Assembly (NCBI GenBank): GCA_947169115.1
Contig: CAMVOK010000016.1
Location: 1 to 64,000 of the forward strand
DNA length: 64,000 nt
Direction: 5' to 3'
DNA from: an uncultured Prevotellaceae bacterium
GTDB taxonomy: Bacteria; Bacteroidota; Bacteroidia; Bacteroidales; Bacteroidaceae
In this document: positions 14,464 through 18,920 of the stretch, piece after piece
Position numbering within the stretch: the stretch's first letter is position 1
Layout of the letters: every line of letters starts with the position of its first letter
The notes under the pieces: generated by a model
Seen by the model: the letters and a program-made list of their open reading frames with translations, nothing else
The model's database searches: none
Told to the model about the DNA's origin: nothing
Translations under genes and position numbers: made by a program

Positions 14464-14523
14464 ATCTAAAAACGCAAAAACGCACGAAAAACTACTTTCG
14501 TTTTTTTCGTGCGTTTAGATGTT
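14461..14523 (-). terminator. Terminator-like hairpin downstream of the small-peptide operon
   Basis: CGCACGAAAAA/TTTTTCGTGCG (11 bp) inside AACATCTAAA/TTTAGATGTT (10 bp); T-rich on the minus strand. Confidence 0.7.
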
Positions 14524-14532
14524 CAAATAAAT

Positions 14533-14673
14533 TTAGAACAAGTTCTTATCTGCCTTCACGTCGAAGGGACCCGGCTTGCCATTGATATCAATTGTACTGG
14601 TAGCCACGAGCAGGTGATCACCACTCTCTATGGCAATAACCTTGGTTCTCATCTTGATATATGGTTGTTTCAT
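14533..14673 (-). CDS. Small peptide 2 (46 aa), homologous to small peptide 1
   Basis: MKQPYIKMRTKVIAIESGDHLLVATSTIDINGKPGPFDVKADKNLF* translated by hand; missing from the ORF track because of the length cutoff. Confidence 0.65.
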   Translation of the reverse strand: MKQPYIKMRTKVIAIESGDHLLVATSTIDINGKPGPFDVKADKNLF

Positions 14674-14698
14674 ATCTTGTCTTGTTCACATTACTGAT

Positions 14699-14875
14699 TT
14701 ACCAGATATCTTCGGTCTTGTCATCATCCCAATCCTCTTCCCATCCCCGGTCTTCCTTCGCATCGAAGTTGCCGCCGCTACCGCCTATGGTAATCTGGCT
14801 CACCTCCAATATCCAGTGGCGGACAGACACGCTGATGGTGTCTGCCGCCGGTTCTATATATGCTTTCTTCATCAT
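14699..14875 (-). CDS. Small peptide 1 (58 aa)
   Basis: MMKKAYIEPAADTISVSVRHWILEVSQITIGGSGGNFDAKEDRGWEEDWDDDKTEDIW* translated by hand; starts 6 bp after the stop of the 887-aa CDS. Confidence 0.7.
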   Translation of the reverse strand: MMKKAYIEPAADTISVSVRHWILEVSQITIGGSGGNFDAKEDRGWEEDWDDDKTEDIW

Positions 14876-14881
14876 CAGTTT

Positions 14882-17545
14882 TTACTTTACCACGAACTTC
14901 TTGCCGTTCTTGATGTAGAGTCCCTTTCTGGGATTCGTCACGCGACGGCCATTCAGGTCAAAGACAGGCTGTTCGTTTGTCGAGATTGCATCTCGACCTA
15001 CTTCCTCAAGGCCAGTTTCTATTAATTCGTCCTCATCCATGCCGAAGACCACCACCTTCACCTCGCCAATGTTCTTCGGGTTGCCGTCGCGGTCGGTCAC
15101 GGCCATGTACCAACGCATGGGGCTTAGGGCATTGGTAGCATCTGCTGCCTGATGCAGGCTTCCGCTGCCAAGGGCATAATACCCCTCGCCGAACATCGTG
15201 GCTCCGCTCACTCCCGTGTAGGTACCCGTAAAGGTATAGAGCGTGTTCCACGAAGATACGTCGTAACTCTTTTCCTCTGCCCTGTACAGCGTGGCGTTGG
15301 TCAGAGAGATGGTCTTCTCACCCATCGTCTTGGCCTTGATGAGGTAAGGCGTATGTGCCTCTGTATGTCCGCTCTTCACCTTGAACATCTCCAGCACCGT
15401 CCTATCGACATTGCCGTCTTCATCATCGTCGTACTGGTTCACATTGTTGATGCGAGCCACTTCGAAGTCGTCCTTCCAATCTTCGTATTGCATCTCGAAG
15501 GGAACATACAGGGCTTGCCAGTCAGTGTTAGTAAAGTTACGGGTGTAGGAAAGCGTATTTACCTCATATCCGACATCGTTTGAAAAGGATTTTCCGTCTG
15601 CAAGGTTTACTATATCATTAGGCATACCATAATACATTAAAGAGAATTTATCCCAAGCACACCAAAGCTTGGTATTCTCCTCCAATCGAGTGCCAACACA
15701 CAAAGTGCCGTCTGTAACCTCAACCACTATAGGTTCTATCACATACTCTCCATTCCTAAAAGAATTCGATGCATCGTCTACACTGCTTTCGGAATTTTTC
15801 TTCATGGGGAAAACACGAGTCTTTCCGTTGGCAAAGAAAACTGGCAGATGTTCATAATCTTCGCCTTCCTGACCATAGAATCCCTGTGCCGACAAAGCAT
15901 ATATTCCATTGGGGATTCCCGTGAGAGTCTGGCTGAAAGTAAAAGCCACACGCCATGATTCCACACAGAAGTTCACATCTTCGCCAGTATTACGCCGGTG
16001 TATTTCTCCAGGGAACGTCCAATTCCAGGAATCGTAGTACATATTATTGCGTCCGAAATCGGCATCCTGTATGAGGAAGGTGGCATCTATAGGATTTGTC
16101 TCGGTAGCAGTGGACAAACGTTCCATCATCTCCTCCTCGGATATAATCTTCCATTGCACACTGGCAGCATTAGGATTCGTCTCTGTTTTTCCAAGTACAG
16201 AACTTGTACCATCATAACCATAATATACTGTGCCATCTCCGATGGTGTAAGAATCGTCGGACGTGGCAGTTATATAAAGGGGTTGGGGAGTAGGCTTATC
16301 CATGTAGTCCCCATCGAAATAGTATGATTGTTCACCATAGTAAGTATCGATAACCTGCGATTTCAAGCAGTATCTTCCATCTGAAAGTTTTTGGAGTTCA
16401 ACGAATTCAGGGTGTATAACTAAAGAGGCTCGTGTACCCCAGTCATTTCCTGCGCCCCAGTATTTTCCTGTGGATATGTTTTGAAGATAGAATTTACCAT
16501 ATCCAATAGACTCGCTGCCATCATTGAAAACCGTTACCTCACATGTAGCCGAAACGTTGCTGCTGCCCCTGGTCTTACAAGTGATGGTGCAAGTACCGGG
16601 GGCAACGGCCACGACCACCCCGTCCGAGCCTACCACGGCTACCCCCGTGTCGCTGGAGCTCCACGTGAGAGCCGTGGCTGCTGCATCGTCCGGGCTGACC
16701 GTAGCCACGAGCTTCGTGGAACCGCCCGCTGCAAGCGACAGGGACGAGGGCGACAAGGCAATGTCCGCCGCTGTTGGAACAACGCGTACAGGGCGAACAG
16801 ATAGGCCGTTGCTACGGCGGCCGTGCGCGTCGACGATGGACGAAACGAAGCCCAGGCCACGGGCGTGGTCCGGGTCGCTCGCGAAGAGCGTACGCGACCA
16901 GAAGTAGCCGGATGAACCTGCATTGTAGAGCGAAGGATCTGTGGGCGACGAACCTCCGTAGGAGGAGGGCCACATATAGCGAAACCCTGCGGCCGGCAGG
17001 AAAATGAAGTTCCCGACATAGCCAGACACCTTGCTCGTTATCTTACGGCCATATACACCGTTCACGGTCGTCGACTCCGAGGTGGTGTAATCGCTGTTGG
17101 TGAGTTCATCTAACTGTTCTATTGTCGGCATACGCCACCCACTGCCCCAGTTGGTCGTGGCGGCATCGTCCTCGGAAACGAGTTCGGTCAGGTTATCGGT
17201 AAAGCCGTTGTAACCGTGGCTGCTGTCACTGCAGTACTTGGTCAGGGTGTTGTAACTGCCTTTGCAGTACTTATAGGTTCTCCAGACATAATCGGTCTTC
17301 GTGTAGGTGCCAGCGTTGGAGTAATTCATGGCATTGCTCTCGTCCGTTCCGCCGTAGGGAACTGTCTCGCCCCAAGCGAAGTAGTCGCCGTAGTCCTCGG
17401 GGTTGTTGGCACCCACATTGCAGGTGGCCCACAAGGTTCCACTGGGAAGACCGAGGTCAACATACTCGCGTGTGTCGGCCGAAGCCACACAGGCTGCCAT
17501 ACTCATGAGCATAGCGAGCAGAAAAGTTAAATGTTTGTGTTTCAT
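14882..17545 (-). CDS. Multidomain surface protein: DLGLPSGTLWA domain, BIG2-like Ig domain, C-terminal sorting-like tail
   Basis: Signal peptide; IALSPSSLSLAAGGSTKLVATVSPDDA...VAPGTCTITC; tail PVFDLNGRRVTNPRKGLYIKNGKKFVVK. Confidence 0.85.
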   Translation of the reverse strand: MKHKHLTFLLAMLMSMAACVASADTREYVDLGLPSGTLWATCNVGANNPEDYGDYFAWGETVPYGGTDESNAMNYSNAGTYTKTDYVWRTYKYCKGSYNTLTKYCSDSSHGYNGFTDNLTELVSEDDAATTNWGSGWRMPTIEQLDELTNSDYTTSESTTVNGVYGRKITSKVSGYVGNFIFLPAAGFRYMWPSSYGGSSPTDPSLYNAGSSGYFWSRTLFASDPDHARGLGFVSSIVDAHGRRSNGLSVRPVRVVPTAADIALSPSSLSLAAGGSTKLVATVSPDDAAATALTWSSSDTGVAVVGSDGVVVAVAPGTCTITCKTRGSSNVSATCEVTVFNDGSESIGYGKFYLQNISTGKYWGAGNDWGTRASLVIHPEFVELQKLSDGRYCLKSQVIDTYYGEQSYYFDGDYMDKPTPQPLYITATSDDSYTIGDGTVYYGYDGTSSVLGKTETNPNAASVQWKIISEEEMMERLSTATETNPIDATFLIQDADFGRNNMYYDSWNWTFPGEIHRRNTGEDVNFCVESWRVAFTFSQTLTGIPNGIYALSAQGFYGQEGEDYEHLPVFFANGKTRVFPMKKNSESSVDDASNSFRNGEYVIEPIVVEVTDGTLCVGTRLEENTKLWCAWDKFSLMYYGMPNDIVNLADGKSFSNDVGYEVNTLSYTRNFTNTDWQALYVPFEMQYEDWKDDFEVARINNVNQYDDDEDGNVDRTVLEMFKVKSGHTEAHTPYLIKAKTMGEKTISLTNATLYRAEEKSYDVSSWNTLYTFTGTYTGVSGATMFGEGYYALGSGSLHQAADATNALSPMRWYMAVTDRDGNPKNIGEVKVVVFGMDEDELIETGLEEVGRDAISTNEQPVFDLNGRRVTNPRKGLYIKNGKKFVVK

Positions 17546-18588: not shown

Positions 18589-18815
18589 CAAAATAATGTA
18601 TAATGTACCGCTCGAAATTATGAAAAAATTTCGCTTGCGTAGTAAAACGGAGCAAGAATGTATAATGTATAATTTCTTTGAATGAGTGTTCGAATAGCTG
18701 CGCACTAATCCCCACTTTTCCACTGGACGCTACCACCCCTGCCTTTGCCACCGTCGCGATGCTCCCCAATTGCTCAAACACATAACTCGCAATTGCCTCT
18801 CCGGAGGAGGGGAGT

Positions 18816-18920
18816 TTGATTGCTACAATCAACACCTTTTGATTGGGCAACCATCATGCTTTGATTGCTGCAACCATCATATCTTGGTTGTACGAACTGA
18901 GGGAAATTAGTGGGCAACGC
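18816..18920. repeat. Array B2: four or five 22-23-bp units (TTGATTGCTGCAACCATCATATC)
   Basis: TTGATTG at 18816, 18839, 18861; TTGGTTG at 18884; degenerate unit at 18907. TTGATTGCTACAATCAA (18816-18832) is a perfect 7+3+7 dyad. Confidence 0.9.

Follow-up and report, generated by a model that had tools for sequence, protein, structure and literature searches.

A family of small leaderless peptides encoded behind surface-protein genes with short T9SS-type tails in Prevotella-type bacteria

T9SS cargo proteins are regarded as self-sufficient, with a signal peptide, a CTD and, for type A, a shared PorV shuttle. As for type B cargo, PorP/SprF, the presumed cognate partner, is encoded directly behind some of the cargo genes, and SprF is an outer-membrane beta-barrel (PMC12618676, PMC10202324). 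In Prevotella intermedia a 'short CTD' was recently defined, with short and long signals alike undergoing cleavage and glycosylation according to the excerpts of PMC11969387 (2025) used for comparison here; no peptide gene behind the cargo is described in those excerpts. Our survey of the open-licence literature yielded no paper with the peptide motif presented below and no account of surface-gene/peptide pairs.

The locus of interest lies in a 64,000-nucleotide stretch of DNA, hereafter the window, from an uncultured Prevotellaceae bacterium. Two small ORFs are present on its minus strand, peptide 1 at 14699..14875 (57-58 aa) and peptide 2 at 14533..14673 (46 aa), with translations exactly as written by hand in an earlier note on this DNA, which had proposed that they are homologous and belong to one transcription unit with the preceding surface-protein gene. 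The peptide 1 ORF (14875-14699) begins 6 nt past the stop codon of an 887-aa ORF (17545-14882). The second ATG (14872), located 9 nt past that stop, is preferred in the family alignments and is the likely true start, which would give a peptide of 57 aa. A spacer of 25 nt separates peptide 1 from peptide 2. The unit appears to be closed by an intrinsic terminator read from the sequence on the minus strand (14476..14513), with an 11-bp stem (CGCACGAAAAA...TTTTTCGTGCG) followed by TTTTT; the 78-nt segment containing the hairpin (14532-14455) has a folding energy of -23.6 kcal/mol. Across the family, a strong hairpin was found behind 93% of 87 peptide genes, with a median of -23.6 vs -12.2 kcal/mol inside ORFs. 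The peptide is therefore typically the last gene of its unit, and this feature, together with the 6-nt gap, bears out the proposal of a single transcription unit.

The 887-aa protein (14882..17545, minus strand) comprises a Sec-type signal peptide (MKHKHLTFLLAMLMSMAACVASA, read from the sequence, with a signal-like hydrophobic core), a Big_2 domain, an Lcl_C-like region that scores under the Pfam cut-off, a beta-rich C-terminal region and a short T9SS-type signal. Like the short-CTD cargo of P. intermedia, it thus combines an N-terminal signal peptide with a C-terminal tail of ~43 aa (14885..15013, minus strand), which we compared with the motif definitions excerpted from PMC11969387 and with a tail alignment. 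The tail has a cleavage-like TGL, FDLNGRR as motif B, GLYI as motif D and GKKFVVK as motif E, in agreement with the layout given in those definitions (TGI/TGL, then Y/F-x-L-x-G-R/Q, then GxY or GxN followed by I, then a basic motif E). It has no match over the curated cut-off to the canonical type A CTD models (TIGR04183/PF18962); TIGR04183 is over cut-off at four other loci of the same genome, none of which (0/4) has a peptide behind it. The C-terminal 225 aa, comprising the beta-rich domain and the tail (14885..15559, minus strand), gave an all-beta predicted model of moderate confidence (pLDDT 75). A Foldseek search of the PDB returned no significant match for this region (best E 0.04, probability 0.16), and the identity of the tail is therefore not confirmed by fold.

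We take the tail as a short T9SS signal, with predicted cleavage and surface location, because it fits the P. intermedia short CTD, because the genome encodes SprA, the PorU sortase and a PorV-like gene downstream of porU, and because its distribution is linked to that of SprA. Indeed, the tail was found in 0/28 SprA-negative vs 12/16 SprA-positive genomes (Fisher p 9e-8), a comparison that leaves out genome G307, which has PorU and no SprA match. G307, the SprA-negative genome richest in peptides, was considered as a counter-example and then set aside, on account of its full PorU and its 59 short tails. On these grounds SprA is probably missing or broken in its assembly, which is listed as 100% complete and gave no match in two models. 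Four other genomes (G417, G431, G459 (g2) and G304) have SprA and no short tail at E 1e-5, and are thus T9SS-positive without this tail.

The peptides are not confined to the window. In the rest of the 2.7-Mb genome and in the window together, the DNA motif for MKKxYxxP has 11 occurrences, vs 0 for a reversed control pattern, and the peptides with this strict motif all (11/11) begin 3-56 nt 3' of a tail-bearing gene. The tail pattern is Y/F-D/N-L-x-G-R/Q-x-V...K-G-x-Y-I-x-N-G-K-K, the upstream gene on contig C11 having a less strict version. With four peptides as queries, 85,462 species genomes were scanned and gave 30 loci, mostly in rumen or gut assemblies of Bacteroidaceae/Prevotellaceae. 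As judged with a tail HMM at an analyst-set cut-off of 8 bits, a tail gene lies upstream of 25/25 named peptides with enough upstream DNA for an ORF, and of 52/62 evaluable peptides examined from the 201 genomes of a family-wide motif search. The median gap between the tail gene and the peptide is 36 nt in these other-genome sets. The peptide gene or genes thus come last in a unit that also encodes a single large surface protein, exported by Sec and bearing a short T9SS signal. The suggestion, made from the window, that they might be accessory peptides of a surface system gains considerable strength from this association, and the co-occurrence with surface proteins that the earlier note wished to see examined is found both in this genome and beyond it. 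Two further peptides (L185 and L232) lie behind genes whose C-terminus is ordered differently; in L231, L232 and L185 the order is DGxY(I/L)IxG(R/K)xVxV...GVKYSxNGQ, which may represent a surface-sorting tail of another type.

The converse does not hold. The tail search of the window's own genome, in which the 887-aa protein scores 81.5 bits, pointed to about 94 places, and a family peptide is present behind 21/90 tail genes whose downstream DNA was read and absent behind the other 69/90. These counts cover the DNA stretches around the tail matches in an assembly that is 87% complete. With some three in four short-tail genes devoid of a peptide, T9SS export does not depend on the peptide in general. 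The form of the tail that includes the preceding beta-rich segment is found in 11/12 peptide-positive vs 9/69 peptide-negative cases among tails outside the profile build, the start of the profile match serving as a proxy for the beta-rich domain.

Both small ORFs belong to the same family. Peptide 1 scored 34.7 bits against an HMM of 75 peptides from other genomes and peptide 2 only 8.5 bits, the best of 850 shuffles reaching 8.0. Against an HMM of own-genome members, from which both window peptides and their copies on contig C6 had been left out, peptide 2 scored 27.0 bits, whereas 2000 shuffles reached 6.8 at most. It follows that the two are homologues, as the earlier note had it, and peptide 2 belongs to a divergent subfamily. 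E-values are fragile for proteins of 50-60 residues, and we put weight on the shuffles and on synteny instead. Tandem pairs also occur on contig C26 of the same genome, in G378 (C1:1155054 and 1155230) and in G490 (C5:75587 and 75774). Strict-motif peptides were found in 79/154 SprA-positive vs 7/47 SprA-negative genomes. The homologues in other genomes bear out the recurrence of such short proteins in Prevotella-type genomes, to which the earlier note had pointed, and the absence of homologues that would have spoken against the pair is not what we found. In a phylum-wide motif scan, counts outside the window genome's own family were near those of the reversed control, and we therefore do not claim this peptide family for the whole phylum.

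A paralogous second unit is present in the same genome, at G000:C6:49019-49352. It shares with the window 1119 bp that are 94% identical and ungapped, spanning the final 242 surface-gene codons together with the two peptides. The N-terminal 265 residues of the two surface proteins are just 52% identical, and a middle segment of the window protein is missing in the C6 protein. In this comparison, the peptides move with the C-terminal region and without the N-terminal domain. The pattern between window 14533-15559 and G000:C6:49019-49352 is that of module exchange or gene conversion.

Such a pattern might mean that the peptide ORFs have little function themselves and are carried along by a C-terminal module that recombines. 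In favour of this, the two peptides and the C-terminal region have been homogenised together, as a single block shared by the two loci, and most tail genes do without peptides. We consider such hitch-hiking quite improbable, since the peptides persist across genera, are conserved at Ser, Lys and Trp positions outside the search pattern and show constraint in their codons. All 8 differences between peptide 2 and its C6 copy are synonymous (8/8, 0 nonsynonymous), and peptide 1 differs from its copy with a dN of 0.044 and a dS of 0.203, giving a dN/dS of about 0.22, far from the value near 1 that the earlier note had named as evidence against genuine genes. The family is under purifying selection in most pairs (dN/dS <1), and both ORFs seem, on sequence grounds, to behave as translated genes.

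The family has a recognisable layout, in which MKK-x-Y-[IL]-x-P is followed by a near-invariant Ser around position 25, then by a Gly/acidic segment that varies, and finally by a tail of the form [KR]E..(N)xWD..W. Its members are 42-75 aa long (~96 compared, one own-genome entry in shortened form), with a mean net charge of -4.9 distributed unevenly, the N-terminal 20 residues having +1.3 and the C-terminal 25 residues -4.8; a Trp is found within the last 25 residues of 89% of them. Conservation of the MKKxYxxP start is partly imposed by our search pattern, which is not the case for the Ser (88%), the K/R (82%), the Trp (92%) or the second Trp (68%). Peptide 1 is a clear member of this MKKxYxxP...S...KxxxWD..W family. 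As for peptide 2, it has a net charge of +2, and the acidic, Trp-containing tail is missing. The motif 'G..G..FD.K' given in the earlier note describes the local version, and the marks shared family-wide are rather MKKxYxxP, the Ser around position 25 and the C-terminal K/R-x-x-x-W-D..W.

No signal-peptide-like hydrophobic core was detected by hydropathy in the first 30 residues of the family peptides; the maximum 8-residue hydropathy is 1.1 for peptide 1 and 2.0 for peptide 2, vs at least 2.6 for local signal peptides. Among 34 members searched against Pfam and NCBIfam, none (0/34) scored above a curated cut-off. A possible kinship with eukaryotic DSS1/SEM1 (PF05160) was rejected, as it consists of 17 tail residues alike in 2/34 members, at an E of 0.0011 that is below cut-off, and is compositional only. 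AlphaFold gave no confident fold for the peptide family (pLDDT 63, pTM 0.19, no elements), and a folded mini-protein is therefore not supported. The two ORFs are members of a conserved small-protein family that is undescribed and has no Pfam or NCBIfam model. The family has been overlooked because of this lack of a model and because its members are too short for usual annotation.

An N-terminal block with a near-invariant Ser, followed by a stretch of variable length, brings to mind a precursor. The first ~26 residues might be a leader that a dedicated peptidase or exporter recognises, the acidic/aromatic remainder being released outside or displayed with the surface protein, possibly in modified form. 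In a genome lacking SprA, two proteins (L264 and L271) that join a similar N-terminal motif to a different C-terminal part would fit this reading. It nevertheless appears fairly unlikely. The N-terminal conservation is in part a product of the search pattern, and conservation extends to the C-terminal Trp/acidic motif, which is not what most precursor cores show. Furthermore, there is no transporter, peptidase or maturase gene beside the peptides in the few kb inspected per locus, no Gly-Gly-type (G-G/A/S) cleavage motif, and the residue preceding the Ser is variable. The idea of RiPP-like precursors, which had been raised on first sight of the window, thus loses ground.

The sparse homologues in SprA-negative genomes have a different neighbourhood, sitting directly before lipoprotein genes. 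Three of the six downstream genes tested (L247, L249 and L255; 3/6) match Mfa_like_1 (PF13149), and family members are thus found directly before genes of the fimbrillin-like clusters of Bacteroidales in these T9SS-negative relatives. In contrast with the window, the peptide there precedes the surface-protein gene, and no T9SS tail is present. Given these contexts, we dropped recognition of the T9SS tail as a family-wide role; the common denominator is therefore an exported surface protein rather than a T9SS signal. In one genome (G350), L264 (plus strand, ~1496) and L271 (minus strand) are proteins of ~140-150 aa that begin with MVMKNTYVKPEMQVEEFLANQYVAACGDTEYG, have a longer C-terminal part and end in GHATSN(M/I)..(D/E)SW..VKS.

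The association with lipoprotein genes in T9SS-negative genomes, the transcript shared with one cargo, the last position ahead of a terminator and the multiplicity of diverged copies (20-25 per genome in two genomes of the same genus) could also be those of a regulator. Peptide abundance would then report the level of the surface-protein mRNA and feed back on expression, for instance by acting on an anti-sigma factor, a kinase or the ribosome. We regard such a role as unlikely, for no regulator gene lies nearby and binding to DNA or to a sigma factor would be unusual for disordered acidic peptides.

We tentatively propose instead that the peptide is a cytosolic accessory partner for the export or expression of the surface protein. 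Leaderless and mostly disordered, it would remain in the cytoplasm, be made beside its cargo and act before or during export of the latter. Its acidic, Trp-rich tail would most likely bind the nascent cargo transiently, or else an export or expression factor, the natural binding candidate being the beta-rich C-terminal region of the cargo with its basic signal. The cargo might thereby be held competent, or its synthesis matched to export. Our confidence in this model is low because peptide 2 has no acidic Trp tail and because most short-CTD genes have no peptide.

In this way the peptide would be to its cargo what PorP/SprF is to type B T9SS cargo, a cognate partner, and in both cases only some cargo genes have a partner gene directly behind them. 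The two are unrelated, however. SprF is a beta-barrel of the outer membrane, whereas the putative partner here is leaderless, disordered and ~57 aa long, and an identity with PorP/SprF is at odds with peptides of 57 and 46 aa that have no signal-like core or confident fold. The cargo also differs from type B in having a type-A-like short CTD, and is expected to use PorV. Unlike that cargo, the family peptides have neither a CTD nor a signal peptide. DSS1/SEM1, as acidic, Trp-rich disordered partners, offer an analogy for a disordered binding peptide, with no homology claimed.

The presence of these peptides behind a subset of short-CTD cargo genes suggests an overlooked cargo-specific factor. 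A broader reading, which we find rather doubtful, is that disordered, acidic, Trp-tailed leaderless proteins make up a new class of proteins that, throughout Bacteroidales, act as cognate partners for large surface proteins, serving short-CTD T9SS cargo in Prevotella-type bacteria and fimbrillin-like or other lipoproteins in T9SS-negative ones. If true, this would add a pre-export, cargo-specific layer to surface-protein biogenesis that is new to both T9SS and fimbrial export. The 57-codon ORF offers a simple handle on surface building in abundant gut and rumen bacteria of the Prevotella type.

Other features of the window's own genome were recorded along the way. On contig C9, three units of a surface gene and a peptide lie ~5-6 kb apart (G000:C9:86703, 92627 and 97367), with runs of AACGTTAACG-like short repeats behind the peptides. 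At L015 (G000:C11:43371), the peptide has a tail gene on one side and, 29 nt downstream, a lipoprotein gene that matches PI-PLC-X, and this locus thus joins both types of neighbourhood. Finally, a non-coding repeat unit whose frames read 'LGKHHALIATTII' / 'GCSNQ' is common to at least two loci of this genome, at ~18774-18917 of the window and at ~999-1448 of L003.
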